Below, in pieces: positions 8,772 through 24,539 of a stretch of DNA of 43,994 bases. A program made the position numbers and the translations under genes. The DNA is from Clostridia bacterium (GTDB lineage Bacteria; Bacillota; Clostridia; Christensenellales; Borkfalkiaceae): positions 3,310 to 47,303 of the forward strand of contig JAJPZA010000051.1 of assembly GCA_021204625.1 (NCBI GenBank), given 5' to 3'. Within the stretch, counting starts at the first letter, position 1. The number at the start of each line of letters is the position of its first letter. The notes under the pieces were generated by a model. That model saw only the letters and a list, made by a program, of their open reading frames with translations. It did not search any database and was not told the origin of the DNA.

Positions 8772-10112
8772 ATGGACCTTTTTGATTACAACGGAAACGA
8801 AGAGAAGGCCAGGCCGCTTGCAGACCGCATGCGGCCCAGCTGCCTTGCGGACTTCATTGGCCAGAAGCATATAGTGGCGGAGGGGTCCCTGCTTCGCAGG
8901 GCCATTGCCCTGGACCGCCTTGGAAGCTGCATATTCTGGGGTCCTCCGGGAACAGGCAAGACCACGCTTGCTCATATAGTGGCGCAGACTACCCACGGTG
9001 AGTTCATAAAGCTCAACGCCGTCCAGGCGGGCGTCGCGGACGTAAAGAGGGCCGTGGACCAGGCTACGGAAAACCTGCGCCTCTACAACAAGCGCACGTA
9101 CCTTCTTCTGGACGAGTGCCACCGCTTCAACAAGACCCAGTCCGACTCCCTTCTCCCGGCCATAGAAAAAGGCACTGTAATCTTCATAGGCTCCACAACA
9201 GAGAACCCGTACGCATCCATGACTCCTGCCATAGTCTCCAGGTGCCGTGTGTTTGAGTTCAGGCAGCTCTCGGAAGAGGAAATCGCCGGAGCCATACGCA
9301 AGGCCCTTTCAGACACCCGCAGAGGCCTGGGCAACTACGGCGCCGTTGTGGACGATGACGCCGTCTCCCATATAGCCCGCACAGCCGGCGGAGACCTCCG
9401 CGCGGCATACAATGCCATAGAGCTTGCAGTCCTCACGACCCCGCCCTCCGAAGACGGGAAAATACATGTTACCCTGTCTGATGCGGAGCAGTCCATCCAG
9501 CGCAAATCCATGTCCTTCGGCGAGGACGCATACTATGATTATCTGTCCGCATTCTGCAAATCCCTCCGCGGGAGCGATTCCAACGCAGCACTCTATTACG
9601 CCATGCGGCTCATAGAGGGAGGATGCGACCCCATGATAATAGCCCGCCGCCTTGTGATCCATTCATCCGAAGACGTGGGCATGGCAGACCCCAACGCCCT
9701 CGTTGTTGCATCCTCCGCAATGTACGTCCTGGAAAAGACCGGATATCCGGAAGGGCTCATTCCCCTTTCCAACGCCATAATATACGTCTGCGAAGCTCCT
9801 AAGAGCGGCACGGTTAAGGCCGCCATGAGAGCGGCGCAGGAAGACGCCAGATCCACACGGGATGACGAAGGGGTCCCGCCGTACATAAAGGACAACTCAT
9901 ACGGAGACAAGGCCACAAAGGCCCAGTCCCTGAATTACAAATACCCCCACAACTATCCCGGAGGCTATGTGGAGCAGCAGTACCTCCCGGACAAGCTGAA
10001 AGACCGCATATATTACGTTCCCACGGACTACGGCTACGAGAAGCAGGTGAAGGCGAACCGCGAGGCCAAAGGCATGCCGTCCGCGCCAGAAGAGAAGGGG
10101 GATGAAGACTGA
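8772..10112 (+). CDS. rarA: Replication-associated recombination protein A (RarA/MgsA AAA+ ATPase)
   Basis: A 446-residue AAA+ ATPase of the RarA/MgsA/WRNIP1 family, related to clamp-loader subunits and acting at stalled replication forks. Walker A GPPGTGKT is at residues 57-64, Walker B LLLDECH at 111-117 (Cys where many have Ile), sensor 1 in STTENP near 141-146, and the Arg finger in SRC near 157. The C-terminal tetramerisation region with EDVGMADP and PEG motifs is present, and the length is normal. Its stop overlaps the start of array gene P1 by one base (TGATG), so P1 can be translationally coupled to it. Confidence 0.93.
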   Translation: MDLFDYNGNEEKARPLADRMRPSCLADFIGQKHIVAEGSLLRRAIALDRLGSCIFWGPPGTGKTTLAHIVAQTTHGEFIKLNAVQAGVADVKRAVDQATENLRLYNKRTYLLLDECHRFNKTQSDSLLPAIEKGTVIFIGSTTENPYASMTPAIVSRCRVFEFRQLSEEEIAGAIRKALSDTRRGLGNYGAVVDDDAVSHIARTAGGDLRAAYNAIELAVLTTPPSEDGKIHVTLSDAEQSIQRKSMSFGEDAYYDYLSAFCKSLRGSDSNAALYYAMRLIEGGCDPMIIARRLVIHSSEDVGMADPNALVVASSAMYVLEKTGYPEGLIPLSNAIIYVCEAPKSGTVKAAMRAAQEDARSTRDDEGVPPYIKDNSYGDKATKAQSLNYKYPHNYPGGYVEQQYLPDKLKDRIYYVPTDYGYEKQVKANREAKGMPSAPEEKGDED

Positions 10113-11725
10113 TGGCCAGAGGCAGAAAAAGACATTTCTTGAACGGCAATTCCCAGGAAACCTTCGCCGAGTCCGCAAGCGTCCCCGCAAACGGAGTTTA
10201 CAAGTCTGTTTCCATAGATGAAGCCGGCTTCAGCGACGAGATAGCGGACAAAATGAAGCATAGTCTGGGCATAACCACTGTAGGGCAGCTTCTGCAGTAT
10301 TCATCGTACGATCTTCGGCACAGCTGGAGCCTGAAGGAATATGTGATAGAGACCCTGGACACCTTCGACGAGTACCTTTACGAAAGCCTTGAAAAGCAGA
10401 AGAAAGAGTACTACGACAATCCTGAGCCCATATACAGGCTTCTGGGGCTGAAGGATCCGGGCCGTTACGCAAACTATCTCATTTATGATTTCAACGAGGC
10501 TGTGCTGCATTTTATCCCGGAGGTGTTCGGCTCCCTAAGGAAGAACGGGATTATAACCCTGCTGGACTTTTTCAAGCTGGATCTTGTGGCGTACCATGAG
10601 CTTTTTGAATGTAGTGACAACGAAGCCCGCCTAGTGCTGGTCTGCGTGAAGAAGGGACTTAGGTCCATAAGCAAAGTGCCTGCCATGGTCATGCAGCTGG
10701 ATTCCGCCGGAAAGGATGTAATAACATATCCTCTGCCGGAGGATGCAAGGGGAAAGGTCTCATCTCTTACCGATGACCGCATAGCGGGGGACAGAGTGTC
10801 TTTAAAGGGCATGACCTCATACGAAAAGGCTCTGTACGGCAAATCATGCGAGGCCATAGAGGACTGCGGCGAGGGATTCTATTACGATGTCATAGACAGC
10901 AAGGAGATTTTTGAGAGTTTTTCCAAAAGCCTTGCCGTATTCTATTCCCAGGAGCTGGAGCTTCTGCAGCGTAAGGAAATGATCCGCAGCCTGTACTTTG
11001 CCGTGCCGGACAGAATCCGGAAGATGCCCGCAAGGGTCCTGTGCCGTTACATGAGGCCCCGTTATACGGATACCGGCAGCGAATGGCCATACAGAAACTA
11101 TTACAATGCGAGGGAGGTTGTGTTTTTCAAAAGCTATGAACCGATCCGCACAAGCGACAGGATGATGACTCTGGAGGCAGCCTTTGGTCATATGGAGGAC
11201 CTCATGAACGGCTGCAGCACAATCGAGGAGCTGGACAAGCTTATAAACGCGGACAATGACAAGCAGTTCATGGACCTTCTGGACTGGCTTTCCCACGCGA
11301 ATATGCTCAATGCAATATATGACACCTTCATGAAGCCGCCGCGCCAGCACAGCCATGAGGCTCCTAAGCAGATGAAGCAGGAGATAACGGAGACGGACCC
11401 GGATGAGGTCATTGCCCGGTTTGCCGGGATAATGAATGACTCCCCGGATGACAGTCTGGACGGCTTTCCTTATTACCAGGATGATGACTGGAATTATTCC
11501 GCCTGGTCCATATACAGATACTGCAGATATGACTTTTTCTCTGTCTACATGCTTCTGACCGGCAAAACATCCGTGCCCGCCGGCATACTGGACGATTTTC
11601 TGTATACGGAAGACGCGGAAGACTTCAAACGTTATCTTACATACGAGAGCAGGAATGATTCTTGCTGCTATGAATACAATCCGGAGACGGGCATGGTCTC
11701 CATTAAAGCGAATGTCTTTGAGTGA
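10112..11725 (+). CDS. Array paralog P1: alpha-CTD-like HhH domain protein
   Basis: First of six paralogs (537 residues), unnamed to my knowledge. Residues about 36-90 resemble the helix-hairpin-helix C-terminal domain of RNA polymerase alpha (GITTVGQLL, then a Leu-spaced helix). The family signature NPEPIYRL is at 103-110, and a second HhH-like motif, NGIITLLDFFKLDL, is near 145-158. A conserved core starts at DDRIAGD (221-227) and continues through YEKALY and CG..FYYDV. The C-terminal domain begins at YDFFSVYMLL. No sigma region 4-like helix-turn-helix is seen, unlike P4 and P6. There are no membrane segments. The start overlaps rarA by one base, with GAAGGGGG upstream. A nucleic-acid or transcription role is inferred from the fold resemblance only. 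Confidence 0.7.
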   Translation: MARGRKRHFLNGNSQETFAESASVPANGVYKSVSIDEAGFSDEIADKMKHSLGITTVGQLLQYSSYDLRHSWSLKEYVIETLDTFDEYLYESLEKQKKEYYDNPEPIYRLLGLKDPGRYANYLIYDFNEAVLHFIPEVFGSLRKNGIITLLDFFKLDLVAYHELFECSDNEARLVLVCVKKGLRSISKVPAMVMQLDSAGKDVITYPLPEDARGKVSSLTDDRIAGDRVSLKGMTSYEKALYGKSCEAIEDCGEGFYYDVIDSKEIFESFSKSLAVFYSQELELLQRKEMIRSLYFAVPDRIRKMPARVLCRYMRPRYTDTGSEWPYRNYYNAREVVFFKSYEPIRTSDRMMTLEAAFGHMEDLMNGCSTIEELDKLINADNDKQFMDLLDWLSHANMLNAIYDTFMKPPRQHSHEAPKQMKQEITETDPDEVIARFAGIMNDSPDDSLDGFPYYQDDDWNYSAWSIYRYCRYDFFSVYMLLTGKTSVPAGILDDFLYTEDAEDFKRYLTYESRNDSCCYEYNPETGMVSIKANVFE

Positions 11726-11794
11726 CCGCCCCGTATTCCAGACTGCGGCAGACCTGCGCAGGGCACCTGCGCATTACAGGTTCCGCGCTGGAAT

Positions 11795-11833
11795 CATTTC
11801 CACACAAAGACAGCGCAGTATGCCGTATCCAAG
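11795..11833 (+). promoter_or_regulatory. Shared 39-bp leader element, copy A1 (before P2)
   Basis: This block (CATTTCCACACAAAG, then CAGCGCAGTATG) recurs nearly unchanged at 13572-13610 and 15372-15410. Copies A1 and A2 lie exactly 83 bases (start to start) before the initiation codons of P2 and P3. The conserved ATATG-like part could be a -10 region. Its full 34-bp palindrome partner is missing here. Confidence 0.55.
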
Positions 11834-11877
11834 CGGGATGCCGGCATTGCAGAAAATACAAGGACGCAGAGGGCACA

Positions 11878-13497
11878 ATGGCCGGAAAGTACAAAAGGCA
11901 GATTATACAGGACACGAGGACCCAGACCAGGCTGGACGACTTGCTTGAAGTCTCGGTGGACGGGTTTTTCTCCAAAATCCCGCTGGAGCATGTTGGCTTC
12001 AGCGTGGAGGTCCTGGATCTGCTTAAAAGCCACAAAATAACCATGATCGGGCAGCTTCTGAAGTTTTCTCCGGCAAGCCTGAGAAAAAAGAAGTACCTGA
12101 CGGGGCATGTCATAAAGATGCTGGATGCCCTGGATGAGTATTTCTGCAACGCCTTCGAGGAGGGCAGAAAGGCATACTATGAAAACCCTGTGCCCTTATA
12201 CAAGCTCCTGCGGCTGAAGGATATAGACTTCTGCAGAAACTATCTGCTCTATGATTACAGGCAGAGCGAATACGGCTACAGAGAGGACTTCAGAAACTTC
12301 AGAGCCCACGGCGTCATCACGCTGTATGACTTTTTAAAGCTGGATCTCGGCACATACCACGAATACGGCATCTTATGGGGTGAATCCCTGCGCGGCATGC
12401 TGAGGTCTTTCCGTTCCGGCCTGGATTTCTGTATCAAAATCTCGCAGCGCATGACATATCCCCTGAATGAACACGAGACGGAAGTGATATCCTACCCGCT
12501 GCCGGAAGCGGCAAGGTACAAAGTGTCCTGTCTCACAGATGACCGCATAGCGGGGGACGAAGTTTCCACAGCACGCTTAAGCTCCTATGAAAAGGCCCTT
12601 TATGACAGGACGCAGGGAGCATTAGAGGACTGCGGGGAGACCTTCTATTATGACGTCCTGGATAATCGTGAGGCCTTCTCCAATCTTGCCAAAAGCTTTG
12701 CCTCATTCTGCGCTCCAGCCTTGGAGTTCATGCAGCGGAAGATCATGATCCGCAATCTGTACATGGGAGTGCCGGAAAAATTCCGGCAGATGCCGGCAAG
12801 GGCTCTGTATCATTACATGGTGCCCAGACACAGCGGCCCGCGCCAGACCTCCCCGTACGACAAGTACCGCATCGGACGGGATGCTTCGTTTTTCAGGAAA
12901 TGGGAGCTGTTTCGCACCACGTGCAGAATGGCCACGGTTGAAGAGGCATACTGGCATCTGGAAGAAATCACGGAAGCATGCAGGGACATAAGCGACTTTG
13001 ACCGGATGCTGGAAAACGACATGATCTGGCCTTTTCTGGACCTTATGCACTGGCTGGGAAGAGTTAGCATGCTCTCGGCCGTGTATGACTGCTTCCTGCG
13101 CTATTCCGAATATGACAGGCACGAAGCGGCGGATGAAATGAAGGCCATTGTTCCTGTGACAGACCCGGACGAGGTCATTGGCCGCTTCGCCGCAATAAAC
13201 AATGGGAAAGCCAAGGTGAAGCCCGGCATCTTCGTTTACTATGACAGTGAGGAGGACCACACCTGGTTCGGCTTCCGTGACCGCTATATCTCATACCGGT
13301 ACGATTTCTTCGCCGTGTACATGCTCTTAAGCGGCAAAACCTCCGTGCCGCTTGAAAAGGCGCGCAAAGTCCTCCATCCGGAAGAGTCAAACAGGCTGAT
13401 AAATTTATTCTGCGAGTTCGCGGATTACACATACCTGTACGAATACAACCCGGACACGGACTCCGTAGACATGAAGCCGCACGCCCTGGAGTGGTAG
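11878..13497 (+). CDS. Array paralog P2: alpha-CTD-like HhH domain protein
   Basis: This 539-residue protein belongs to the P1/P3 subgroup. The frame is open to 11722, but ATG 11878 follows CAGAGGG and its distance from the leader element equals that of P3. Basic N-terminus (MAGKYKRQ). The alpha-CTD-like segment is at about 33-90 (IPLEHVGFS through MIGQLLKFS), the signature NPVPLYKL at 103-110, and the second HhH-like motif HGVITLYDFLKLDL near 143-156. The core DDRIAGDEVS, CG..FYYDV and MQRK...PEKFRQMPAR follow, then the C-terminal YDFFAVYMLL domain. Its last 67 coding bases and the following 13 bases are identical to the end of P3, implying recombination between the two genes. Function unknown. 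Confidence 0.7.
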   Translation: MAGKYKRQIIQDTRTQTRLDDLLEVSVDGFFSKIPLEHVGFSVEVLDLLKSHKITMIGQLLKFSPASLRKKKYLTGHVIKMLDALDEYFCNAFEEGRKAYYENPVPLYKLLRLKDIDFCRNYLLYDYRQSEYGYREDFRNFRAHGVITLYDFLKLDLGTYHEYGILWGESLRGMLRSFRSGLDFCIKISQRMTYPLNEHETEVISYPLPEAARYKVSCLTDDRIAGDEVSTARLSSYEKALYDRTQGALEDCGETFYYDVLDNREAFSNLAKSFASFCAPALEFMQRKIMIRNLYMGVPEKFRQMPARALYHYMVPRHSGPRQTSPYDKYRIGRDASFFRKWELFRTTCRMATVEEAYWHLEEITEACRDISDFDRMLENDMIWPFLDLMHWLGRVSMLSAVYDCFLRYSEYDRHEAADEMKAIVPVTDPDEVIGRFAAINNGKAKVKPGIFVYYDSEEDHTWFGFRDRYISYRYDFFAVYMLLSGKTSVPLEKARKVLHPEESNRLINLFCEFADYTYLYEYNPDTDSVDMKPHALEW

Positions 13498-13511
13498 CCG
13501 CCGCTCCAAAC
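13432..13511 (+). repeat. 80-bp exact direct repeat, copy 1 (3' end of P2)
   Basis: Bases 13432-13511 are identical to 15218-15297. The repeat spans the last codons of P2, its stop and 14 bases of intergenic DNA. The matching genes are otherwise clearly diverged, so this is a recent exchange or conversion tract. Confidence 0.9.
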
Positions 13512-13526
13512 TTCCAAACTTATTAC

Positions 13527-13560
13527 AAACTTGTATGCTGCAAATGCACGCAGCAAGTTT
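13527..13560 (+). repeat. 34-bp palindromic element, copy 1
   Basis: First of seven 34-bp imperfect palindromes. The consensus arm RAACTTNTATGTTGCA (16 bp) is followed by a 2-bp A/T centre and the inverse arm. This copy starts 30 bases after the P2 stop. It is 128 bases (start to start) before P3, and its right arm is partly degenerate (ACGCAGCAAGTTT). Confidence 0.8.
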
Positions 13561-13571
13561 CATAGATGCTG

Positions 13572-13610
13572 CATTTCCACGCAAAGACAGCGCAATATGC
13601 CGCATTCAAG
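13572..13610 (+). promoter_or_regulatory. Shared 39-bp leader element, copy A2 (before P3)
   Basis: Near-identical to 11795-11833, with an ACGCAAAG variant and CAATATG in the ATATG block. It begins exactly 83 bases before the P3 start, as copy A1 does before P2. It lies just downstream of palindrome copy 1. A promoter or 5' leader role is inferred from the conserved position. Confidence 0.55.
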
Positions 13611-13654
13611 ATGGATAAAGGAATCCAAACGACCCCGGGGACGGATGAAAACTG

Positions 13655-15283
13655 ATGGCTAAAGTCAAAAGAAAAAGGCAGCTGATTACGGACGCAAGGT
13701 GCGTGCAGCCTTTGAACTGCATGCTCAGCATTTCCAATCTTGGGTACTTTGACAGGATCCCGCTGGAGCATGTCGGGTTTTCCGATGACATTCTGGAGCT
13801 GCTCAGGGAACACGGGATGACGGTTTTGGGGGACATATTGGGACAGTCTCCGGCTGCGCTGAGAAGAAGGAGGTACCTGTATGCATACGTTCCTGACATG
13901 CTGGATGCCCTTGACGCATATTTCTGCAAGGCCTTTGAGGAAGGGGAAAAGGCATACCGGGAAGACCCGGTGCCCATATACAGGCTCCTGAAACTGAGGG
14001 ACATTGAAAAATACAGGTTTTGCCTCTTGCATGACTTCAGCTCGAATGTAACAAAGTCCTTTCCGGATGTTTTCAAGGCTCTTAGAGCCAGCGGAATCAT
14101 TACCGTTTATGACTTTTTCAAGATGAACCTCATTGATTATCATGAGTGTGTTGATCAGGATGATTCATCGCTCCGTTACATGCTGAACTGGATCAGCATT
14201 GTTTTGAAAGGATCTGTCTGTAATACCCTCCCGATGCCTTGCCCCGTAAATGACCGCGAGACGGAAGTGATAACATATCCGCTGCCGGCAATTGCAAAGC
14301 GGAAAGTCTCCTTGCTTACGGATGACCGCATAGCGGGGGACGATGTTTCCGTAAAAAGGCTGACCCCGTATGAAAAGGCCCTGTATGACAGATCCGAAGA
14401 AGCTATAGAGGACTGCGGCGTGGGTTTCTACTATGACGTCGTTGAAGACAAAGAGCCATTTGTGAGTCTTTCAAAAACCCTGGCCGCGTTTTACGCCCCT
14501 GTTCTGGAGCTGATGCAGCGGAAAGTCTTGCTCCGCAATCTGTACATGGCCGTGCCGGAAAAGTTCCGGCAGATGCCCGTCCGGGCCATGTATCATTACA
14601 TGGTGCCAAGGAGCATGAATCCGGAAGGAAATTCCCCATACTGCAGGTTTGCATGCTGCGGCAGGGAAGTTCCTTTTTTCAAGGAATGGGAGCTGTTTCA
14701 GCACCAAGGCAGAATGATGCCCCTTGAAGATGCATACAGGCATTTGGAAGAGCTTGTTGAGGAATGCGGCACCATTGAGGATTTTGACCGGATAATGGAG
14801 ACAGACGGAGACTGGGAGTTTCTGGACCTTCTGCACTGGCTGGGAAGCGTGAGCATGCTGACTGCGGTATATGACAGCTTTCTTAAAACCTCATACAAAG
14901 ACAGTCATGAGGCTCCAGATGCCATGAAGGCCATTATCCCTGAGGCGGATCCGGACGAAGTCATAGCAAGGCTCTGCGCCATGAAGCATGATCAAAAACA
15001 GGTCAATCCCGATGTTTTCCCGTATTACAAGAAGCCTTACGACGCATTCCGGCTGACAATGAGCGGGCGTTTCAGCTCATCCAGATATGATTTTTTTGCC
15101 GTATACATGCTGCTTGCCGGCAAGACATCCGTGCCGTATTCCATTGCCAGAAACATCCTGCATCTGGCAGACGGGAGAGAGCTTCTGCTTTTTTTCCGCG
15201 ATTTTTCCAATAAGAATTACCTGTACGAATACAACCCGGACACGGACTCCGTAGACATGAAGCCGCACGCCCTGGAGTGGTAG
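13655..15283 (+). CDS. Array paralog P3: alpha-CTD-like HhH domain protein
   Basis: This 542-residue protein is closest to P2. Basic start MAKVKRKRQL. The alpha-CTD-like segment runs about 34-90: IPLEHVGFSDDI, then GMTVLGDILGQSPAALR. Signature DPVPIYRL is at 104-111, and the second HhH-like motif SGIITVYDFFKMNL near 145-158. Core blocks DDRIAGDDVS, CG..FYYDV, MQRK and PEKFRQMPVR are present, and the C-terminal domain starts at YDFFAVYMLL. No intact helix-turn-helix is visible ahead of it. The gene has a 34-bp palindrome and the 39-bp element in its leader. Its 3' end is identical to P2 over 80 bases. Function unknown. A nucleic-acid-binding role is inferred. Confidence 0.7.
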   Translation: MAKVKRKRQLITDARCVQPLNCMLSISNLGYFDRIPLEHVGFSDDILELLREHGMTVLGDILGQSPAALRRRRYLYAYVPDMLDALDAYFCKAFEEGEKAYREDPVPIYRLLKLRDIEKYRFCLLHDFSSNVTKSFPDVFKALRASGIITVYDFFKMNLIDYHECVDQDDSSLRYMLNWISIVLKGSVCNTLPMPCPVNDRETEVITYPLPAIAKRKVSLLTDDRIAGDDVSVKRLTPYEKALYDRSEEAIEDCGVGFYYDVVEDKEPFVSLSKTLAAFYAPVLELMQRKVLLRNLYMAVPEKFRQMPVRAMYHYMVPRSMNPEGNSPYCRFACCGREVPFFKEWELFQHQGRMMPLEDAYRHLEELVEECGTIEDFDRIMETDGDWEFLDLLHWLGSVSMLTAVYDSFLKTSYKDSHEAPDAMKAIIPEADPDEVIARLCAMKHDQKQVNPDVFPYYKKPYDAFRLTMSGRFSSSRYDFFAVYMLLAGKTSVPYSIARNILHLADGRELLLFFRDFSNKNYLYEYNPDTDSVDMKPHALEW

Positions 15284-15297
15284 CCGCCGCTCCAAAC
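15218..15297 (+). repeat. 80-bp exact direct repeat, copy 2 (3' end of P3)
   Basis: Identical to 13432-13511. Downstream of it the two gaps stay near-identical for a further 85 bases (palindrome and 39-bp element), broken only by a size change in the CTCCAAAC motif run. Confidence 0.9.
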
Positions 15298-15330
15298 AAT
15301 CTCCAAACGTGCTCCAAACATGCTCCAAAC
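15289..15330 (+). repeat. Short CTCCAAAC motif run
   Basis: CTCCAAAC occurs four times, separated by 2-3 bases, ending at the left edge of palindrome copy 2. The matching gap after P2 holds only degenerate versions and is 14 bases shorter, so the run is probably a slippage-prone tract. Confidence 0.75.
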
Positions 15331-15360
15331 TTGTATGCTGCAAATGCACGCAACAAGTTT
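15327..15360 (+). repeat. 34-bp palindromic element, copy 2
   Basis: It differs from copy 1 at one base (ACGCAACAAGTTT right arm). It starts 44 bases after the P3 stop and 105 bases before the chosen P4 start. Confidence 0.8.
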
Positions 15361-15371
15361 CATAGATGTTG

Positions 15372-15410
15372 CATTTCCACGCAAAGACAGCACAGTATGT
15401 CTTGTTCAAG
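15372..15410 (+). promoter_or_regulatory. Shared 39-bp leader element, copy A3 (before P4)
   Basis: Third copy of the CATTTCCACGCAAAG block with CAGTATG. It starts 60 bases before the chosen P4 start rather than 83, so the downstream part of this leader has diverged. Confidence 0.5.
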
Positions 15411-15431
15411 GCATCTGCGCGGGTGAATGGC

Positions 15432-17102
15432 ATGAAAGATTACAAGACAAATCCCAATATAAAAAAGCAGGCTCAGGAGCTTGCCCGCACCATAATGAAG
15501 TGCCGTACGGGCGGATGGCTCTTCAGCTCCTTTGGCCTTCGCATGACAGACTGGTACGACGATCTGGACGTGGACGGCCTGGACCTCGGAACGGACATTA
15601 TTGAGCGTCTCAGAAGCAACGGGTACGGAACAATAGGTTCAGTTCTCAGTGCAGAGCCCAAAAATCTGCGCAGAAAGGAAGGCATGGAGGAGCATATGGA
15701 GGAAGTCATTGGGGCCGTGGCGGAATATGTCCTGGAAGACAGGGCTCTTCTATCTGCTTACGCCGCAAAGAATGATCTTCCGCTGTACAGGATTCTCAGG
15801 TATGAAGACATACGCCAGTACAGAAACGTGCCTGTGGACATATATGCGGAGGAGTGGGATATGCGTGACTGTATTGAAGTGCCCAGGGCCGCCCGGTACA
15901 GCAGGGTTGTAACCCTGTATGAGTTTCTCAAACTGGATCTCACGACAATCCGCGGCATGATTCTCACCTACCGCAGCGACAATAAACAGAATATGCCTGC
16001 GGCCGTATCGGATCATGACCTGCTGTTCAATTATCTCGTTCGCCTGGATATGCGTCTCAAGAAGTTTGGAATTCCGCCGGAGTGCAGATATCTCACTCTG
16101 CTGGATACGGATGATGATCCCCAGCCTGTCACATACCCCATAAACCCTTTCTGGCAGCATAGAATCCGCACCCTTTTGGACCGGCATATCGCGGGGAAGG
16201 AAGTATCCCTCAAAGGCCTGCCGCCCGCAGCCAGGGCTGCATACAAAAAGGCCGCTGAAGCAATGGACATTTGCGGAACAGATGTCTTCGACGGCATCCT
16301 GGAAGACCCTGATTATTCCGGATACTTTGCGGAATGCCTCGGCTACCATGTCACCTCGACACTCCGCGAAACGGAGCTGTGCGCATGGCTTCGCACATAC
16401 CTGTACGGCATACCTGAGAGCATCCGTGACAGGAAGGTGTCCGAGGTCATAAAATATTATGACCTTTATGAAGATCTGGATCACAATTATCTGGCAGGAG
16501 CCATGGACAAGACGCTGTACGGCTATTTCTCCGCATACGTGGACTCATGCCTTTCAAATGACCTGCAGGAAGCACTCAAGGCGCGGCCCGTCAACGAGTT
16601 CCTCAAGTGGGCCGGCTCTGCAGGCATGGAGCAGGTCATACAAGAGACTTTCACAAGCAGCATGGGAGACAGGATACCCCTTTTGGACGGGGAGCTGGAG
16701 GAGATGCAAAAGGTGGTCGAGCTCAGATCCGCCGGGATGACCAGAAAAGAAGCCGGCGCCAAAATCGGCATAACCAACATGAAAGTCGCCGCAGTCGAGA
16801 AGAACATAGACTGGTGCCTCTGGCATCATATAAATGAAGGAGAGAACCACTGCATCCATGACCTCGTGGCCGTATATTTCCTCTTGAACCCCGGCGCAAA
16901 AACCCTGGACAGAAAAACTCTGGAAGGCCTCCTGGGCCCGGGGAAGGCCTTCGTATACTGGAATTACATACAGAGGAATTACGAGGATCTCACAAACAGC
17001 CTGTACGCTTATTCTCCGGACAAAGACTCCATCCACCTGAAGCGCACCCGCAAAAAGACTGCGGATTTACCGGTCCGGCTGGACTTTGATGACCTGATGT
17101 AA
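15432..17102 (+). CDS. Array paralog P4: alpha-CTD-like plus sigma4-like HTH protein
   Basis: This divergent 556-residue member starts at ATG 15432, though the frame is open to 15366. The alpha-CTD-like part is about residues 43-100 (DLGTDIIERL, GYGTIGSVL, then NLRRKEG). Family signature DLPLYRIL is at 115-122, and the second motif VVTLYEFLKLDL follows. The core is looser (DRHIAGKEVSLKGL, CGTD). Residues about 425-461 form a clear helix-turn-helix like sigma-70 region 4: SAGMTRKEAGAKIG followed by ITNMKVAAVEKN. The shared C-terminal domain (HDLVAVYFLL) comes next, ending in a basic KRTRKK tail. The pairing of alpha-CTD-like and sigma4-like modules suggests a transcription-related DNA binder. 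That is inference. Confidence 0.72.
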   Translation: MKDYKTNPNIKKQAQELARTIMKCRTGGWLFSSFGLRMTDWYDDLDVDGLDLGTDIIERLRSNGYGTIGSVLSAEPKNLRRKEGMEEHMEEVIGAVAEYVLEDRALLSAYAAKNDLPLYRILRYEDIRQYRNVPVDIYAEEWDMRDCIEVPRAARYSRVVTLYEFLKLDLTTIRGMILTYRSDNKQNMPAAVSDHDLLFNYLVRLDMRLKKFGIPPECRYLTLLDTDDDPQPVTYPINPFWQHRIRTLLDRHIAGKEVSLKGLPPAARAAYKKAAEAMDICGTDVFDGILEDPDYSGYFAECLGYHVTSTLRETELCAWLRTYLYGIPESIRDRKVSEVIKYYDLYEDLDHNYLAGAMDKTLYGYFSAYVDSCLSNDLQEALKARPVNEFLKWAGSAGMEQVIQETFTSSMGDRIPLLDGELEEMQKVVELRSAGMTRKEAGAKIGITNMKVAAVEKNIDWCLWHHINEGENHCIHDLVAVYFLLNPGAKTLDRKTLEGLLGPGKAFVYWNYIQRNYEDLTNSLYAYSPDKDSIHLKRTRKKTADLPVRLDFDDLM

Positions 17103-17173
17103 CCGTCCGGTCCAATTATGTCTTAAACAAGAAATGATGCCGGCGCACTTAAGCCGCCGCGCAGGGGGAAAAT

Positions 17174-18151
17174 ATGTATTTCAAGACACCGGTTCCTATT
17201 CCGTATGAGACAAGGAAAGTGACACGCACAAAGGCTACTAACGGCGAAGTGTATATCGGATATACAATCAGTGTCAAGTATGATTCCTCTCTAAAAAAGT
17301 TCCGCTCTGTCCGCAAGGCCATCGGCAGAATGTGCCAGGACGATGAGAGCATGATGTACCCAAACGAGAACTACTACAAGCTGTTCCCGGATGAGCATCC
17401 TGCAGAGGACAATGATTCTGCTCTTACGGAATACATGCAGACGCATGACCTTCATGCTCCGGCCGCAGACAGGGCAAAGCGGTTGCCCAAAAAGAACCGG
17501 GTGATGTCCGCGGATGAAATCATGACCGTCCTGAACGTGCAGGGAGAGAAGAATCTGGAGAGGCGCAAGGCCGGCCTGCCGTACTGGTGCAACGATCCGG
17601 CTCTCTTTTCCGAGCAGCACGTGTACCAGGACAGGATGGTTGAATACAACCGCACCATGCCCACAGAAACGGATCTAAGGCAGAAGCTTCTCAAGGAGAT
17701 GTTTGCGGAGATTGGAGAGGATTGCATGGTTGAGACTCCGATAAACGCCAACTGGGGCTGCCATAACGTGCATCTAGGAAGCGGCGTCTATATAAACTCC
17801 AATGTGACTTTCGTGGATGATGCGGACATATATATCGGGGACAACTGCCTCATAGCCCCCAACGTGGTCTTTGCCACGGCCGGACATCCCATCCTTCCGG
17901 AGCTCCGGGAAAATGATTACCAGTACGAGCTGCCAATCCATATAGGCCGCAACGTCTGGATAGGCTCCGCAGTGCAGATTATGCCGGGAATAACCATAGG
18001 GGACAATTCTGTAATAGGCGCGGGAAGCGTAGTCACGAGGGATATCCCCGCAGGCGTAGTGGCATACGGCGTTCCCTGCAAGGAAAGGCGGAAAATAGGC
18101 TTAAGAGACAGGGAGTTCTATTACAGGGACAGGAGATTTCCCAGGGACTGA
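17174..18151 (+). CDS. Chimeric protein: IS transposase N-terminal domain fused to maltose/galactoside-type O-acetyltransferase
   Basis: A single 325-residue frame with a good ribosome site (AGGGGG) before ATG 17174. Residues about 1-75 match the N-terminal domain of IS4/IS1634-type transposases of Clostridia: a basic lead, VYIGYTISVKYDSSLKK, then RKAIGRM, DDESMMYPNENYYKLFP. Residues about 110-310 form a complete maltose O-acetyltransferase-like enzyme: a MAC-type N-terminal helix region, left-handed beta-helix hexapeptide repeats, catalytic His238 in TAGHP, and the SVVTRDIPAGVVAYGVP end. It should transfer acetyl from CoA to a sugar hydroxyl. The fusion is unusual, and the N-domain could bind DNA. 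The gap before it lacks the 34-bp palindrome found before its downstream neighbours. Confidence 0.8.
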   Translation: MYFKTPVPIPYETRKVTRTKATNGEVYIGYTISVKYDSSLKKFRSVRKAIGRMCQDDESMMYPNENYYKLFPDEHPAEDNDSALTEYMQTHDLHAPAADRAKRLPKKNRVMSADEIMTVLNVQGEKNLERRKAGLPYWCNDPALFSEQHVYQDRMVEYNRTMPTETDLRQKLLKEMFAEIGEDCMVETPINANWGCHNVHLGSGVYINSNVTFVDDADIYIGDNCLIAPNVVFATAGHPILPELRENDYQYELPIHIGRNVWIGSAVQIMPGITIGDNSVIGAGSVVTRDIPAGVVAYGVPCKERRKIGLRDREFYYRDRRFPRD

Positions 18152-18170
18152 TCTCCTTCAAACTTGCCCC

Positions 18171-18204
18171 AGACTTCCATGTTGCATTTGCACACAACAA
18201 GTTT
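18171..18204 (+). repeat. 34-bp palindromic element, copy 3
   Basis: It starts 20 bases after the acetyltransferase stop and exactly 112 bases before the transposase-like gene's start. The inner GTTGCA-TT-TGCA part and the right end AAGTTT are kept. The left end reads AGACTT. Confidence 0.8.
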
Positions 18205-18282
18205 GAGAAATATTGCAAACAGTTGCAGGCAAAGCGCATACGCAGCGGTATATGAAGCAAACAATCAATGGAGCAAAAATAT

Positions 18283-19362
18283 ATGAGTACAAACCGTCCC
18301 GGAGACAAGATTTTAAGAGCCCCCTATTGTAATGAAAGGGTGGATTTAAATCCGTTTGCAATTGAAGAACTGTATAAATTTCACAATAAACATTTTTATT
18401 CTGACTTATCTGACTTAGAGGCACCGAAAACCGAATTCAACGGGCATTATCTTTTTACGCTGGATGAAACTGAAATCAAAGTCCCTGCCACTGCTGAAAA
18501 CATTGAACAGTTCGGGGATATCCGGGTGGGAAACAGGATTGAATGCCACATGAGGCTGGGCGCTGTATATGACCTGCGGAACCATCTGATTGTGGATGCG
18601 GCGTGCAATCCGTACATTTATGTTGACAGGAACCTGGCAATATATGAACAGATAAAATCCATTCCGGAATATATCGGAGTGGATCATCCGTACATCACCG
18701 TGCTGGATTCCAGCTGTGAATCACTGCCCCTGATTGTAAGGCTTTTGGCGTCAGGGAAGAAATTTGCAGTCATGCTGAAAAATAACGGGTTCTTTGAGGA
18801 CGAGCTGCATTCCATGAGGGCCGATGACGAAGATATTGTGATAAATCCAGTGCGGTACCGCTCGGAGTTTATTTCAGAAACCGATGAGCCTTATATGAGG
18901 AGTCATGCCTGGGCGTTCAGGATAGTGACGGTATGGTATAAAGGCCAGAGAGCGTCATTGGCAACCAATCTGTCCAGGGAAGAATTCCCGCAGGAAGCTT
19001 TCCGTGAACTGTACAATCTGCGCTGGGGAGACAAGGCCGGTTTCAGGCATCTGCAAAAGCGCCTGCAGATCAAACAGTTCACCGGGACAAGGTGCGCAAC
19101 GCTGCTGCAGGACATATTTGGCATAATCTATATAGCCAATACTGCCGAAGACGTGGCCAGAGACTATGCGGAATTGGCGGGTCTGGATCTTACGTTCATT
19201 GATTGCGTCCAGTCCAGGCTGGTAAACCGCCTGATTGACTTCGCAACCCTGAAGAATGACTTGATATACGCATTGCTGGTCGACAGCGAGGAAAAGTCGG
19301 AAGTGATGACAAAGCTGTACCAGGATATAGAAGACAGAATCAAGCAAGGCATAAAGGGCTGA
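18283..19362 (+). CDS. IS4-type transposase-derived protein lacking catalytic Glu
   Basis: A 359-residue protein with the IS4-family DDE fold but shorter than usual, lacking the N-terminal part. Recognisable blocks are HYLFTLDETEIKVPAT with EQFG, the first catalytic Asp (Asp97, VYDLRN), the second (Asp142, VLDSSCES) and the LATNL strand. The Y-(2)-R-(3)-E-(6)-K block reads Tyr244, Arg247, Lys251, Gln258, so the catalytic Glu is Lys and the Lys is Gln. Transposition activity is therefore unlikely. An ATG at 18268 is in frame, but 18283 has GGAG with 9-base spacing and a 112-base leader identical in layout to P5 and P6. No flanking inverted repeats were seen. It looks domesticated, and its present role is unknown. 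Confidence 0.75.
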   Translation: MSTNRPGDKILRAPYCNERVDLNPFAIEELYKFHNKHFYSDLSDLEAPKTEFNGHYLFTLDETEIKVPATAENIEQFGDIRVGNRIECHMRLGAVYDLRNHLIVDAACNPYIYVDRNLAIYEQIKSIPEYIGVDHPYITVLDSSCESLPLIVRLLASGKKFAVMLKNNGFFEDELHSMRADDEDIVINPVRYRSEFISETDEPYMRSHAWAFRIVTVWYKGQRASLATNLSREEFPQEAFRELYNLRWGDKAGFRHLQKRLQIKQFTGTRCATLLQDIFGIIYIANTAEDVARDYAELAGLDLTFIDCVQSRLVNRLIDFATLKNDLIYALLVDSEEKSEVMTKLYQDIEDRIKQGIKG

Positions 19363-19395
19363 AGGTTCAGGACTGGGCCCATTCAAACCAGTCCC

Positions 19396-19429
19396 GAACT
19401 TGTATGTTGCATTTGCAGCACACAAGATT
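19396..19429 (+). repeat. 34-bp palindromic element, copy 4
   Basis: It starts 34 bases after the transposase-like gene and exactly 112 bases before the P5 start codon. The left arm GAACTTGTATGTTGCA is near consensus, and the right arm ends AAGATT. Confidence 0.82.
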
Positions 19430-19507
19430 GAGAGATGTTGCAAGCAGATGCCTGCAAAGCGCATACGCAGCGGAATATGGCGCAAATAATCATTGGAGTC
19501 AAGCACA

Positions 19508-21112
19508 ATGGCTAAATCTCAGGGAAGCAAGAAGACAACTAAAAAGCGCAGGAAGTACCTGAAGGCCACGAGTGAGGAGCCTCTGTACAAGCAGCTGGGC
19601 CTGACTCTTTGCGGGCGCTTTTCCGAGATGGATATCGGAGTGCTGGGGCTGCCTAAAGAGATAGTTTCTTTCTACAGGGATATAGATTTTAATTCCGTAA
19701 GCCATTATCTGGACCAGACCCCGGAAAATGTATGGCATTTGCTGTTTGTCTATGTGGACAGGAACAAAGTTCTGGACACATTGGACGATTTCTTTGTGGA
19801 TTACTTTGAGTCTGTTAAAAAGGCATACGAGGCCAATCCCGTGCCCATATACAAGCTTATTGAAATCCCTGACTTGAAAAGGTACATAAACAAGTCCATA
19901 TGGTCTTTGATTGCAAGGGATGATCAGGATTATGAAATGATTCCTAAGGCAATCCGCTCCCTTGAACAGCATGGAATCATATCCATGTATGAGTTGCTCA
20001 AACTTAATCTGCATGACTTTCACAGTTATACAGATGTCAATGAAAACGAGGCACGTGAGTTCCTTTCCCATATAAAGAGCGTGGATGTTGAGCATTTTGA
20101 TACTCTTACAACATTCTGTGCCCCCATGAAAGTGAAGGAAGATGTGCCTGTCATTCCGCCGTTTCCGGTGAAAAGCAAGGCCAGAGTTTCGGCCATGATT
20201 GATGACGCCCTTGCCGGCGACGATGTGTCCACGGAGGGATTGTCCGATTATGACAGGACGCTTTATTCCATGGCGAAAGCGGCAGCAGACCTCTGCGGCT
20301 CAGACTTTTACTTTGATGTTGCGGACAATCCGGACATATTCCGGAACCTTGGCGAGGCGCTGGTCCGGTTCAGCGGGCCTATGCTTGAGATGATGGATCT
20401 TAACTATAAGAGAGCATGCCTTTACAACAAAGTGCCTGAGGGAATCCGACCGTTTACTACGGGTTTGCTTTATCAATACCGCCATCCTCAAGACTATTTT
20501 GATGCAACCAAACTCAAATCCTACATGCGCGGCATAGATCCGGACATGCCGCTTGAAGAGGCATACATGCTCATGGATGAGAAACTGAGGTCCGCACAGA
20601 GCATAGGCGAATACAATCGCATCCTCTTCGACTGCAATGCCTCTGCTTTGGACGATATCATGGAGTGGGTGGCAACGATATCAATTGAGAGAGCGGTGGA
20701 TGAGTGCGTTTACAAACTCAGGGACGGATTAATCAACCGGGACAGATGGAAGGACAACCCGCTCATATGTGCGGTAGTCAGCGGCCGGAAGCTATTTCCT
20801 GCTGAGGAAGAAGCATGCAGAAAGTTGGGAAAAAACACCATGGTGCGGGAGAATGCATGCCGTGAAATCCTTTACAATTTCCGCTCGGCAAAACATGACC
20901 TGTTTGCTGCGATGTTTCTCATGAACGGCAACAAACCCGTGACCAAAAAGGATCTGGAGAAAATCATGTCTAAAGAAGCGGCCCATATGGTCTGGAACGC
21001 TGTAAAAGACGAATATCTGGACGAAGGGCTGTACATTTATTCACGTCAGGCGGATGCGGTTATGACTCGTTCAAAATATATTGAAATGTACTCCCGCAAA
21101 TACTTGTTCTGA
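19508..21112 (+). CDS. Array paralog P5: alpha-CTD-like HhH domain protein
   Basis: A 534-residue protein forming a subgroup with P6. Both begin with a basic stretch, KKTTKKRRKYL, and then a LGL..GGRFSEMD-like segment. Start ATG 19508 has GGAG with 9-base spacing in the shared 112-base leader. The alpha-CTD-like part (about 42-100) is more degenerate (SVSHYLDQTPENV, VLDTLDDFF). Signature NPVPIYKL is at 110-117, and the second motif HGIISMYELLKLNL follows. The core is IDDALAGDDVSTEGL with CGSDFYFDV. The helix-turn-helix seen in P6 is eroded here, but the C-terminal KHDLFAAMFLMNGNKPV domain is kept. The sequence is visibly more A/T-rich than the housekeeping neighbours. Function unknown. Confidence 0.7.
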   Translation: MAKSQGSKKTTKKRRKYLKATSEEPLYKQLGLTLCGRFSEMDIGVLGLPKEIVSFYRDIDFNSVSHYLDQTPENVWHLLFVYVDRNKVLDTLDDFFVDYFESVKKAYEANPVPIYKLIEIPDLKRYINKSIWSLIARDDQDYEMIPKAIRSLEQHGIISMYELLKLNLHDFHSYTDVNENEAREFLSHIKSVDVEHFDTLTTFCAPMKVKEDVPVIPPFPVKSKARVSAMIDDALAGDDVSTEGLSDYDRTLYSMAKAAADLCGSDFYFDVADNPDIFRNLGEALVRFSGPMLEMMDLNYKRACLYNKVPEGIRPFTTGLLYQYRHPQDYFDATKLKSYMRGIDPDMPLEEAYMLMDEKLRSAQSIGEYNRILFDCNASALDDIMEWVATISIERAVDECVYKLRDGLINRDRWKDNPLICAVVSGRKLFPAEEEACRKLGKNTMVRENACREILYNFRSAKHDLFAAMFLMNGNKPVTKKDLEKIMSKEAAHMVWNAVKDEYLDEGLYIYSRQADAVMTRSKYIEMYSRKYLF

Positions 21113-21134
21113 AGCCCGCAAATAAACTTGTCCT

Positions 21135-21168
21135 AAACTTTTAAGTTGCATTTGCAACACATAAGTTT
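21135..21168 (+). repeat. 34-bp palindromic element, copy 5
   Basis: AAACTT and AAGTTT ends enclose a perfect GTTGCA-TT-TGCAAC core. It starts 23 bases after P5 and exactly 112 bases before the P6 TTG start. AAACTTGTCC lies just upstream as an extra partial copy of the arm. Confidence 0.88.
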
Positions 21169-21246
21169 GAAAGATGCTGCAAACAGATGCTAGCAAGCGT
21201 AAAACGCTGCTGAATATAGCAAAAACAAGCACTGGAGCTAAACAAA

Positions 21247-22827
21247 TTGGCTGAATCCCGGGGAAAACAGAAAACAACTAAAAAGCGCAGGAAGTATCTG
21301 AGAGCCACAAGCCCGGAGCCCATGTACAGCCAGCTGGGCCTGCTTCCGGGCGGCCGTTTTTCTGAGATGGATTTGAATGTGCTTGGGTTGAACGAAGATG
21401 CCGTTGACTACTTCGACAGGGTGGGATACAGAAACGTAGGTGAATTGCTGAAAAAGGATCCTCCGGGGCTTGGCAAGATATACTGGTATGGCGTAGACAA
21501 GAACGAAATTCTGAATGCTGTGGATTCTTTCTTCGTGGACTATTTTGATTCCGAGAGGGAGAAATACGAGGCCAATCCGGTCCCCATATATGAGCTTTTG
21601 GGAATCAATGACCTCAAAAGGTACATGAACCGGACCATATGGACTATGCAGATGCAGAACGCCTGCAGCTCCGTGCCTAGGGGCATAAGCTCCCTGGTGA
21701 AGAGCGGGATTGTATCCATGTATGAGCTTTTGAAGCTCAATCTGCCGGATTTTCACAGGAAAGCCAAACTGGATGAAGACAAGGGCCGTGAATTCCTTTC
21801 TGCCGTAAAGTGGTGTGACGAGCATTACTTTGATGATTATACGACTTTCTGCGCCCCCTTGGATGAAGATGAGGAAGTGCCTGTTTTGCTTCCTGTGCCG
21901 GAGGAAAGCAAGGACATTGTCTCGCGCATGATGGACGATGCGCTTGCAGGGGATGAAGTGTCCACAGAAGGTCTGCCTGCATACGAGAAGTCACTGTACG
22001 CCAGGACAAAGGCGGCAGCGGACATCTGCGGCCCGGACTTTTATTTCGATGTCATTGAGAGCCCGTACAAATTCTGGAAATTTTCAAAGGAGCTGGTCCG
22101 CATGACCGGCCCGGCTCTTCAGCTGATGGATGACAACTACTACATGGCATGCCTTTTTAATGAAGTGCCTGAGCAGCTGTGCAAGCTTTCATATCGTTAC
22201 CTCATGCATTTCAGCCATCCGCACCATATGTATTATGAAGATGACGCTTCGCTGTTTCCGTACGGGTTCAGCAGATCCCTTTCCATTGAGGATATGTTCA
22301 ATTCAATGGAACCCATACTGAGATCTGCCCGGAGCGAAAAGGAATACAATGCCGCATATGAAAAATACAATATGGGTGTGTTGGTCAATATGATGATGTG
22401 GGCTGTGACCGCAACGGTTGAAAAGGCAGTGGATGATTGCATGTACAGACGGAAAAGATCCCCACACCGGGACAAGTGGGATGAACTGAACGATAAAATC
22501 ATAGATTACAGGGCCAACGGATACACCATCAAGAAAACCGCGGAGCTGACCGGACAGACTCAATACTATGTGACCTCTGTTGAAAAGGATATTCCGGCCA
22601 TGGTCAGAAGATATTTCTGGAACGCCGAGCATGACCTTTTCGCCGTTCTTTTTCTCCTGTGCGGATTCAAGCCCATAACCCAGAGCGAAATAGAAAGACT
22701 CATGACCAAAGAAGCCTCCTACATGCTTTGGAAGGCCGTGACCTCCGGCGCAATTGACTGTGAGCTTTACAGCTACTCTCCCCGCCGGAACGCTGTAATT
22801 ATATCAGCTGAGAAGCTTCCTTCCTGA
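21247..22827 (+). CDS. Array paralog P6: alpha-CTD-like plus sigma4-like HTH protein (TTG start)
   Basis: A 526-residue protein, sister of P5. It starts with TTG at 21247, at the same position in the 112-base leader (GGAG plus 9 bases) where P5 and the transposase-like gene have ATG. The basic N-terminus KTTKKRRKYLRATS matches P5. The alpha-CTD-like part is about 43-100 (VGYRNVGELLKKDPPGL), signature NPVPIYEL at 110-117, and the second motif SGIVSMYELLKLNL follows. Core MDDALAGDEVSTEGL and CGPDFYFDV. Residues about 410-453 hold a helix-turn-helix of sigma4 type (NGYTIKKTAELTGQ, then YYVTSVEKD), followed by the shared C-terminal HDLFAVLFLL domain. DNA binding is likely. The target is unknown. 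Confidence 0.72.
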   Translation: MAESRGKQKTTKKRRKYLRATSPEPMYSQLGLLPGGRFSEMDLNVLGLNEDAVDYFDRVGYRNVGELLKKDPPGLGKIYWYGVDKNEILNAVDSFFVDYFDSEREKYEANPVPIYELLGINDLKRYMNRTIWTMQMQNACSSVPRGISSLVKSGIVSMYELLKLNLPDFHRKAKLDEDKGREFLSAVKWCDEHYFDDYTTFCAPLDEDEEVPVLLPVPEESKDIVSRMMDDALAGDEVSTEGLPAYEKSLYARTKAAADICGPDFYFDVIESPYKFWKFSKELVRMTGPALQLMDDNYYMACLFNEVPEQLCKLSYRYLMHFSHPHHMYYEDDASLFPYGFSRSLSIEDMFNSMEPILRSARSEKEYNAAYEKYNMGVLVNMMMWAVTATVEKAVDDCMYRRKRSPHRDKWDELNDKIIDYRANGYTIKKTAELTGQTQYYVTSVEKDIPAMVRRYFWNAEHDLFAVLFLLCGFKPITQSEIERLMTKEASYMLWKAVTSGAIDCELYSYSPRRNAVIISAEKLPS

Positions 22828-22842
22828 CTATAAACTTGTCCA

Positions 22843-22876
22843 AAACTTATATGTCGCAAATGCAACATATAAGATT
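22843..22876 (+). repeat. 34-bp palindromic element, copy 6
   Basis: The best-formed copy: left arm AAACTTATATGTCGCA, centre AA, right arm TGCAACATATAAGATT. The arms pair over nearly their whole length. It starts 16 bases after the P6 stop, with AAACTTGTCC just upstream. Confidence 0.9.
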
Positions 22877-22940
22877 AATGAATGTTGCAAATACGGCGGA
22901 CTGCAATCTGAAGCCCGACAAAATAGGGTGCGACTTGCCT

Positions 22941-22974
22941 GAACTTCTAAATTGCATATGCGACTTAAAAGATT
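22941..22974 (+). repeat. 34-bp palindromic element, copy 7 (degenerate)
   Basis: Same length and layout (GAACTT at the left end, TTGCA-TA-TGCGA core, AAGATT at the right end) but more degenerate. It covers the -35 and spacer of the promoter for the next gene, which makes an operator role plausible. Confidence 0.65.
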
Positions 22975-22980
22975 TATAAT
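22952..22980 (+). promoter_or_regulatory. Candidate promoter of the HTH-DUF3990-like gene
   Basis: TTGCAT and TATAAT are separated by 17 bases. The -35 lies in the centre of palindrome copy 7 and the spacer in its right arm, so a protein bound to the palindrome would block the promoter. Confidence 0.6.
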
Positions 22981-23038
22981 AGATCTTGCCTTTTCAACGG
23001 GAAAGCCCGGATGCATTGGCATGGCTTGGTAATTGCAT

Positions 23039-23905
23039 ATGGATTATGATTACATCAATGACTTGAAGGTTATAAAAGATGTTGCAGGTCTTTCCTGGAA
23101 TGAACTGGCGGAAGGGATTGGCATTCATCGGGCGACGCTGTTCAGGTGGCTGGACGGAACCGCTGTTCCGTCTCCGGCGAATCTGGACAGCATATACTCT
23201 TATGCCTTCATCCAAAATTGCCGTCTGAACGAAATGCAAGTCAGGCTGTACAATGACATGTATGCCGGTTCGGACACGGTTGTCCTATTTCATGGCGCAA
23301 AGACGGAGGTTGCCAGCGGCATATCATTTGCGAACTCCAGAAAGAAGAATGATTTTGGGCAAGGCTTTTATTGCGGAGAGACTTTCGTCCAGGCAGAAAA
23401 ATGCGTGGCTCAGTTTCCCGATGGGTCTGTTTACATCCTGGCTTTTGACCGGAATGGCCTGAATTGCCAATCTTTCTCAGTTAGCGCGGAATGGATTTTG
23501 GCGGTTTCGTATTACCGCGGATATTTGGATCCGTATCCAGAGTACCGGAATCATCCCAAGATGCAGGCAATAATTGAAAAAACCGAGGCGGCAGATTACA
23601 TATGCGCCCCGGTAGCGGACAACACAATGTATGAAATGATACATGATTTTGCAGAAGAGTTTACAACAGACGGACTGTGCTGTCGCTGCCTGGCTGCCTC
23701 AGATCCGGGGTATCAGTACATATTCAGAAAAGGCAGCGCCTTAGAGCGTCTGACCATGCTGCACCGCTGCTATCTGACGGAAGAAGAGAAGACGGAATTC
23801 ATCAGAAATGGCTTGACGAATCAAACATATGCGGCAGGCAATGTGAGAGCCGCAAGAAGAGAATACATGAGGGAAGGCCAAACTATTGGCCAGATACTGT
23901 CATGA
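23039..23905 (+). CDS. HTH protein with DUF3990-like (ADP-ribosyltransferase-like) domain
   Basis: A 288-residue two-domain protein. Residues about 5-60 form a Cro/C1-type helix-turn-helix (LSWNELAEGIGIHRATLFRWLDG). From about 80 on it resembles DUF3990, a family placed near ADP-ribosyltransferases: LFHGAK at 83-88, then FANS...DFGQGFYCGE (98-114), an AEKCV helix and a YILAFD strand. I start it at ATG 23039; an in-frame TTG lies 6 bases upstream. The stop overlaps the next gene (ATGA), so the two are made together. A toxin-like effector with its own DNA-binding domain, paired with an antitoxin, fits the layout. The biochemical activity is not proven by the sequence. Confidence 0.65.
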   Translation: MDYDYINDLKVIKDVAGLSWNELAEGIGIHRATLFRWLDGTAVPSPANLDSIYSYAFIQNCRLNEMQVRLYNDMYAGSDTVVLFHGAKTEVASGISFANSRKKNDFGQGFYCGETFVQAEKCVAQFPDGSVYILAFDRNGLNCQSFSVSAEWILAVSYYRGYLDPYPEYRNHPKMQAIIEKTEAADYICAPVADNTMYEMIHDFAEEFTTDGLCCRCLAASDPGYQYIFRKGSALERLTMLHRCYLTEEEKTEFIRNGLTNQTYAAGNVRAARREYMREGQTIGQILS

Positions 23906-24429: not shown

Positions 24430-24484
24430 GCCCGTGGTTATGGTTTGGTTATATCCGGTTTAAGAATAGCTTATATCAAATCGT

Positions 24485-24514: not shown

Positions 24515-24539
24515 TTAGGCACAACAGAACATTCAATAA

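Follow-up and report, generated by a model that had tools for sequence, protein, structure and literature searches.

A 43,994-nt stretch of DNA from a Clostridia bacterium (contig JAJPZA010000051.1), referred to here as the window, carries between rarA and aspS an island with six paralogous genes, P1 to P6, whose products combine units resembling the carboxy-terminal domain (CTD) of the RNA polymerase (RNAP) alpha subunit with a C-terminal winged helix predicted from a structural model and, in two copies, a helix-turn-helix (HTH) resembling sigma region 4. Copies of a 34-bp palindrome are interspersed with these genes. We tentatively take P1-P6 for DNA-binding regulators that form a tandem family specific to this lineage and would control their own expression through this palindrome, a reading that we prefer while holding it at less than even confidence. 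All coordinates given below are window positions; the genome of origin is designated G000 and the sister genome G025, whose corresponding locus (L018) is found in the public record JAJPZC010000128.1 and contains the family copies Q1 and Q2.

The P1-P6 family and its distribution

The six paralogous frames proposed by the original prediction were found at the expected starts, all on the + strand, and their products can be aligned end to end, with 25 invariant columns. P1 (10112..11725, 537 aa) comprises the alpha-CTD-like units, a helical core and a C-terminal domain, and its ortholog in the sister genome is Q1, with 65% identity. P2 (11878..13497, 539 aa) shares 55% identity with P3 and 56% with Q2, and P3 (13655..15283, 542 aa) is predicted to fold into a first helix-hairpin-helix unit (HhH-1, residues 29-91), a second one (HhH-2, 119-183) and a winged-helix-like domain (461-542). 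P4 (15432..17102, 556 aa) is the most diverged member and keeps the sigma4-like HTH at residues ~416-475, as does P6 (21247..22827, 526 aa, TTG start, structure also predicted) at residues ~401-462, whereas P5 (19508..21112, 534 aa) is without this signal. The six copies had been described as one run, which is correct as to tandem paralogy but is broken between P4 and P5 by two unrelated genes. As to the motifs proposed for the family, the C-terminal [YH]D[FL][FV][SA][VA] is present in all six; NP.P[IL]Y.L is exact in four, with D in place of N in P3 and a departure from the pattern in P4; and the second motif, GI[IV]..., which falls in the second alpha-CTD-like HhH unit, is exact in only three.

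Identity between P1 and P2 or P3 is 42-43%, between P1 and P4, P5 or P6 20-24%, and between P5 and P6 43%. In the phylogenetic tree, P1 pairs with Q1 (starred support) and P5 with P6 (91/99), while P2, P3 and Q2 form a group (89/90) with an unsettled branching order, and P4 is a long branch of unsure placement. A profile of P1-P6 matched the own genome at full length in six places and no more, each of them inside the window, and also gave weak partial matches to a 768-aa protein encoded on another contig (E 2e-9 and 0.05) and to a 140-aa frame (E 0.013). No Pfam or NCBIfam model matched P1-P6 above its cut-off.

Complete family members were detected in two of 93 genomes of the genus, namely the own genome (six copies) and G025 (two). 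The genome_contigs collection (84,980 genomes) was also scanned by pattern; the scan, which detects only sequences with both of the motifs used and from which own-genome records were possibly excluded, confirmed the G025 locus only. Likewise, viral contigs, phages and plasmids yielded no relatives with one query or alignment per collection, and a phage or plasmid origin was rejected on this basis. No published description of such a protein family was found among the titles and abstract openings covered by the literature search.

Resemblance to the RNAP alpha-CTD

The resemblance to the alpha-CTD, which had been proposed from residue pattern, was borne out for residues ~29-91 (HhH-1) both by profile and by predicted fold, and the HhH fold expected within residues 33-100 was indeed predicted. 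In an order-wide profile search (396 genomes, E<=0.001), all nine matches outside the own genome, in frames of 318-325 aa and at profile positions 31-101, were RpoA proteins matched in their CTD. The class-wide search gave eight such matches, six of which were RpoA, the other two being those of G779 and G730. When the profile of HhH-1 was compared with that of the alpha-CTD, hhalign gave 97% and a score of 55.7, and none of 40 shuffles scored above 13.5, although the RpoA set used was itself picked through family-profile matches and is therefore biased toward similarity. The search of PDB sequences is free of that selection bias, and 14 of the 16 sequences matched at E<=1 were RNAP alpha-type chains, with individually weak E-values (0.016-0.8). 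Single sequences aligned more weakly to the alpha-CTD, from 10.6% (P5) to 90.3% (P2). With the predicted fold of P3 as query, the seven best rows of the structure search were RNAP alpha (VIA rows are a re-examination of Foldseek's own list), while no Foldseek hit at E<=0.001 was obtained with the P6 model against PDB or with the P3 model against the viral set. Residues ~119-191 form a second alpha-CTD-like unit (HhH-2) by predicted fold only, since hhalign gave no sequence support for this likeness (7%).

P1-P6 are thus comparable to RNAP alpha (PF03118) in the HhH fold and sequence pattern of HhH-1, with a second unit alike by fold, and differ from it in several respects. The curated Pfam score of PF03118 is not reached, the best value being 14.3 bits for P2 against the 23.8 required, with no listed match for the other five, and no Pfam match to the alpha N-terminal assembly domain was found in the P1-P6 chains. 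Additionally, the UP-element contact residues of the alpha-CTD (R265, N268 and G296, E. coli numbering) are not preserved: the R265 place is occupied by D/E in seven of eight members and by Y in the other, the N268 place by D/E in seven and by S in one, and the G296 place is a gap in all eight, the glycine of the NLGKKS hairpin being missing.

Sigma4-like HTH and the larger Clostridia relatives

A signal for the sigma-region-4-like HTH was obtained by hhalign in P4 (77.5%) and P6 (39.7%) taken singly, and both HTH segments together matched the sigma4 part of larger Clostridia proteins at 92%. No such signal was obtained in P1-P3, P5, Q1 or Q2, and neither Sigma70_r4 nor any other sigma region was listed by Pfam for P1-P6; the putative likeness to sigma-70 region 4 (PF04545) concerns the HTH of P4 and P6.

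The 768-aa protein mentioned above (G000:C19:5116-7422, locus L021, contig 19) is of this large alpha-CTD/sigma4 type, and its sister counterpart is an 864-aa protein (G025:C175:4302-6896, L023). As a query, the 768-aa protein matched P6 at E 3.4e-7 and P5 at E 2e-5. The 864-aa protein scores above the Pfam cut-off with both RNA_pol_A_CTD (9e-13) and Sigma70_r4 (1.3e-5), and the 768-aa protein matches the two models below cut-off. Among 61 genomes including the own one, the 768-aa protein was matched along its length only in G000 and G025, which are also the two array-bearing genomes, with partial matches in G049 and G054. Of the 290 other genomes sampled across the class, 16 matched the large protein at E <1e-16, and in 13 of these the match spans the sigma4-like part. 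Ten large-protein frames were scanned, all of which matched Sigma70_r4 at E<=0.01 (six above cut-off) and three of which exceeded the cut-off for RNA_pol_A_CTD. It was also observed, by eye, that the 768- and 864-aa genes each adjoin a gene resembling that of a CCA-adding enzyme.

P1-P6 have in common with these proteins (e.g. those of G025:C175, G586:C13 and G690:C11) the order in which the HhH, the helical part, the sigma4-like HTH and the domain after it are arranged, and P5 and P6 provide the statistical link. The large proteins differ in their length (~770-1340 aa) and in a long additional C-terminal region, P1-P6 ending where the 768- and 864-aa proteins continue for ~340 residues. Unlike P1-P6, the four alpha-CTD repeats of the large proteins that were aligned have an R265-like arginine in every case and a GxK[ST] hairpin in three. 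P1-P6 are best read as derived alpha-CTD/sigma4 relatives, of which the arrangement is new and the palindrome private; they would descend from the larger Clostridia proteins in which alpha-CTD/HhH and sigma4-like parts are combined, or have a common ancestor with them. A weak local match to BREX PglW, at E 0.0013 for P1 and at 8e-8 for the 864-aa protein, amounts to one ~90-residue stretch, with no kinase match.

A 34-bp palindrome tied to the island

The palindrome, to which the original prediction made no reference, has the pattern AAACTT-N7-GCA-NN-TGC-N7-AAGTTT or a diverged form of it. It follows P1 at 11750..11783 (diverged, with more than three mismatches), P2 at 13527..13560 (the pattern itself), P3 at 15327..15360 (34 bp), an acetyltransferase gene at 18171..18204 (one mismatch), a transposase-like gene upstream of P5 at 19396..19429 (two mismatches) and P5 at 21135..21168 (34 bp), and two copies follow P6, at 22843..22876 (one mismatch) and 22941..22974 (two mismatches). 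At the thresholds used, none was found before P1 or behind P4 (17103-17173, before the acetyltransferase gene). At <=3 mismatches, seven places were counted in the window against 0.01 expected, and all seven places of the own genome lie inside the island. The island of G025 holds three of that genome's five palindromes (two exact and one with three mismatches), the two outside having three mismatches. G061, G012, G002 and G016 have one palindrome each at three mismatches, where the reversed pattern used as a control gave 2, 1, 1 and 0; two exact single places in the viral collection were judged to be chance without a computed expectation; and no palindrome was found in 20 kb around the large protein from either genome. 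The core measures 34 bp in all 11 copies of both genomes. Model R1 was built from most of the palindromes that it recovers, and its E-values are largely given by construction.

An AATAT-like box follows the palindrome in eight of the 11 copies. Its distance from the palindrome centre is 49 bp in front of P2-P4, 59-60 bp in front of P5, P6 and the transposase-like gene, and 45-48 bp in two leaders of the sister genome. This may be a -10 box. Intrinsic terminators were rejected as an identity of the palindrome, none of 28 terminator-like calls falling on a copy, and a riboswitch was rejected in view of the sole Rfam match in 9000-26700, which is the aspS T-box.

That the palindrome is linked to the island in both species points most readily to an island-encoded factor, and the array proteins are the candidates for it, as the only common island proteins with recognised DNA-binding folds. 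To the observed paralogy, island, palindromes, domain resemblances and fast evolution, the preferred reading thus adds DNA binding, an operator role of the palindrome and regulation as proposals. Each chain would comprise two alpha-CTD-like HhH units and a helical core, to which P4 and P6 add a sigma4-like HTH, and would end in a winged helix. The latter would bind the palindromes between the island genes, probably as a dimer and with the help of the HTH in P4 and P6, and binding would allow the array to regulate itself and its passenger genes. Since the places of the UP-element contact residues are mostly acidic, the alpha-CTD-like units may be protein-protein modules, engaged in multimers or in contacts of the RNAP alpha-CTD type, rather than DNA grips. 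What weighs slightly against this reading is that the palindrome persists in the sister species while Q1 and Q2 are without the HTH; the winged helix would therefore be the main reader, which, together with an island-encoded factor, favours self-regulation of a regulator array. A putative role at DNA or in transcription, offered earlier as an inference, gains in likelihood from the sigma4-like HTH (P4 and P6) and the winged helix.

If the palindrome is an operator, the island would offer a system for studying the takeover of promoter-reading modules and the joint change of regulator and site, since alpha-CTD-like and sigma4-like modules are found here outside RNA polymerase, in one chain, tandem-duplicated and tied to a private palindrome. 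It also draws attention to the wider group of large Clostridia alpha-CTD/sigma4 proteins. A more far-reaching version, which we consider rather unlikely, describes a self-contained and fast-evolving unit in which RNAP readers of the promoter-upstream region, joined in one chain as two alpha-CTD-like units with, in some copies, a sigma4-like HTH, act at a private palindrome. In this case, the palindrome, ~50 or 60 bp upstream of the -10-like box, would occupy the position of a class I activator site. Binding by the charge-reversed alpha-CTD units would be directed at RNAP partners or at one another and involve no DNA, and the array would constitute a set of diversified RNAP-part mimics under the control of its own products.

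The palindrome could instead act as an RNA hairpin, at 3' ends or in leaders, that is stabilising, processed or bound, the array proteins being RNA-binding if they bind it at all. This explanation is rather unlikely, although several observations agree with it. Five of 12 pairs show changes on both sides, 86.7% of cells are paired against 81.2% in shuffles (reached by 0/500) and 25-41% when slid, the covariation score was reached by only 1/500 shuffles, and at one pair the arms of the 11750 copy have changed in a matching way. Furthermore, seven window copies begin 3-31 nt after a stop codon, and for five of ten copies the folding is clearly better than that of shuffles (z -4.3 to -2.5). However, the other five are within the shuffle range (z -1.3 to +0.3), four of the 12 pairs are broken, each in three of ten copies, and neither the terminator calls nor the Rfam search supports an RNA element. 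Much of this signal would also be expected from a palindromic operator, and relatedness among sequences can by itself raise pair counts above those of shuffles.

Evolutionary rate of the island proteins

Rates were estimated by the NG86 method; YN00 values are absent for eight of 19 pairs, with higher dS in the others. The G000-G025 comparison includes nine conserved genes, of which eight come from the array region and one adjoins the large protein gene; for these, dN is 0.02-0.10, dS 0.51-1.14 and dN/dS 0.03-0.12. By comparison, dN is 0.24 for P1, 0.35 for P2 versus Q2, 0.37 for P3 versus Q2, 0.26 for the acetyltransferase and 0.52 for a 175-aa island protein, with dS of 1.22-1.43 in island pairs and 3.35 for the 175-aa protein, values near saturation that make ages rough. 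The corresponding dN/dS is 0.16-0.26 in G000-G025 island pairs and 0.32 for P2 versus P3. Island proteins evolve several-fold faster than flanking ones, and the contrast at silent sites is smaller, fourfold-site differences being 0.26-0.55 in the nine conserved genes and 0.45-0.65 in island pairs. The large alpha-CTD/sigma4 protein is likewise fast, with dN 0.41 and 52% identity between G000 and G025. Across seven family-member pairs, dN/dS is 0.20-0.37 with dS >1, indicating that P1-P6 are real coding genes. Selection for diversity, as originally suggested, is thus borne out in part: the fast evolution is evident, and these ratios give no sign of positive selection.

The same values bear on the possibility that the array is in slow decay, its tandem duplicates having little function left and changing fast under relaxed constraint. 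The higher dN/dS relative to the nine conserved genes, the absence of the HTH signal from four of the six copies and both sister copies, and the narrow occurrence in the genus are in line with decay. This is nonetheless unlikely, given six intact frames, dN/dS well below 1 at dS >1, and a palindrome geometry preserved in both genomes.

The rarA-aspS island and its passenger genes

The island corresponds to the interval between rarA and aspS, which measures 14.75 kb here. In nine of nine genus relatives, rarA is followed by aspS at 0.2-0.74 kb; these come from an aspS search of 22 other genus genomes with ten near-full-length matches, the tenth neighbourhood being cut by a contig end, and include one relative with only the rarA end on the contig and one in which rarA is merely 52% identical. 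In G025, the gene order is patatin, Q1, Q2, acetyltransferase, 175-aa protein and aspS. G+C content is lower in island windows (0.466-0.525) than outside (0.515-0.569). In the window, rarA lies at 8772-10112; in G025, the 20 kb retrieved gave no hit to rarA at the site where the array begins.

Two passenger genes separate P4 from P5. The first (17174..18151, +) encodes a hexapeptide O-acetyltransferase of the galactoside/maltose type, with a copy in the sister island (65%) and an additional N-terminal part of ~130 aa that has no Pfam match. The second (18268..19362, +) is an IS4-type DDE transposase-like gene with its own palindrome and leader copy upstream, the leader being a copy of the 129-nt repeat (79%). 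At E<=1e-5 it was detected once in the own genome and not at all in seven other genus genomes, and terminal inverted repeats were looked for and not found. A live insertion sequence was rejected as the source of the palindrome on these grounds, and the presence of the palindrome in the sister without the IS4-type gene also counts against it. The Y-R-E-K signature reads Y..R...K, with Lys at the place expected for the catalytic Glu, and the gene may be domesticated or dead. Downstream of P6 are genes for a protein with an HTH fused to DUF3990 (23033..23905, +), for which matches to candidate-defence models of PADLOC were obtained (best E 1e-13), and for the 175-aa protein (23902..24429, +), with a copy in the sister island (46%). 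Neither the HTH-DUF3990 gene nor the transposase-like gene had a match in the 20 kb of sister locus taken.

It is very unlikely that the island is an integron-like or other cassette array in which each gene was captured singly with a palindromic recombination site. The palindrome is imperfect, located behind stop codons and also found behind unrelated genes, and the two islands are unlike in gene content. However, the duplicated stretch includes the leader (129-nt and 98-nt repeats), as tandem duplication gives, and no recombinase was found among the window proteins scanned with Pfam, which covered part of the window genes and involved no genome-wide integrase search. A conflict locus, in which the proteins would counter phage or plasmid transcription by alpha-CTD/sigma4 mimicry within a variable defence hotspot, is likewise very unlikely: the fixed site, the fast change and the PADLOC match of the HTH-DUF3990 neighbour are opposed by the absence of phage, plasmid or viral-contig relatives, of any PHROGs match for P1-P6 at E<=0.01, and of PADLOC matches among P1-P6 other than the weak PglW stretch of P1.

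The aspS T-box leader (24536..24772, RF00230, 118 bits) is an ordinary one. Elsewhere in the window, two similar gene copies lie in tandem at 2718-3740 and 4802-5881, as they do in G025 (L022, 2726-3757 and 3944-4978), and this gene is single in the eight other genus loci that reach that far.

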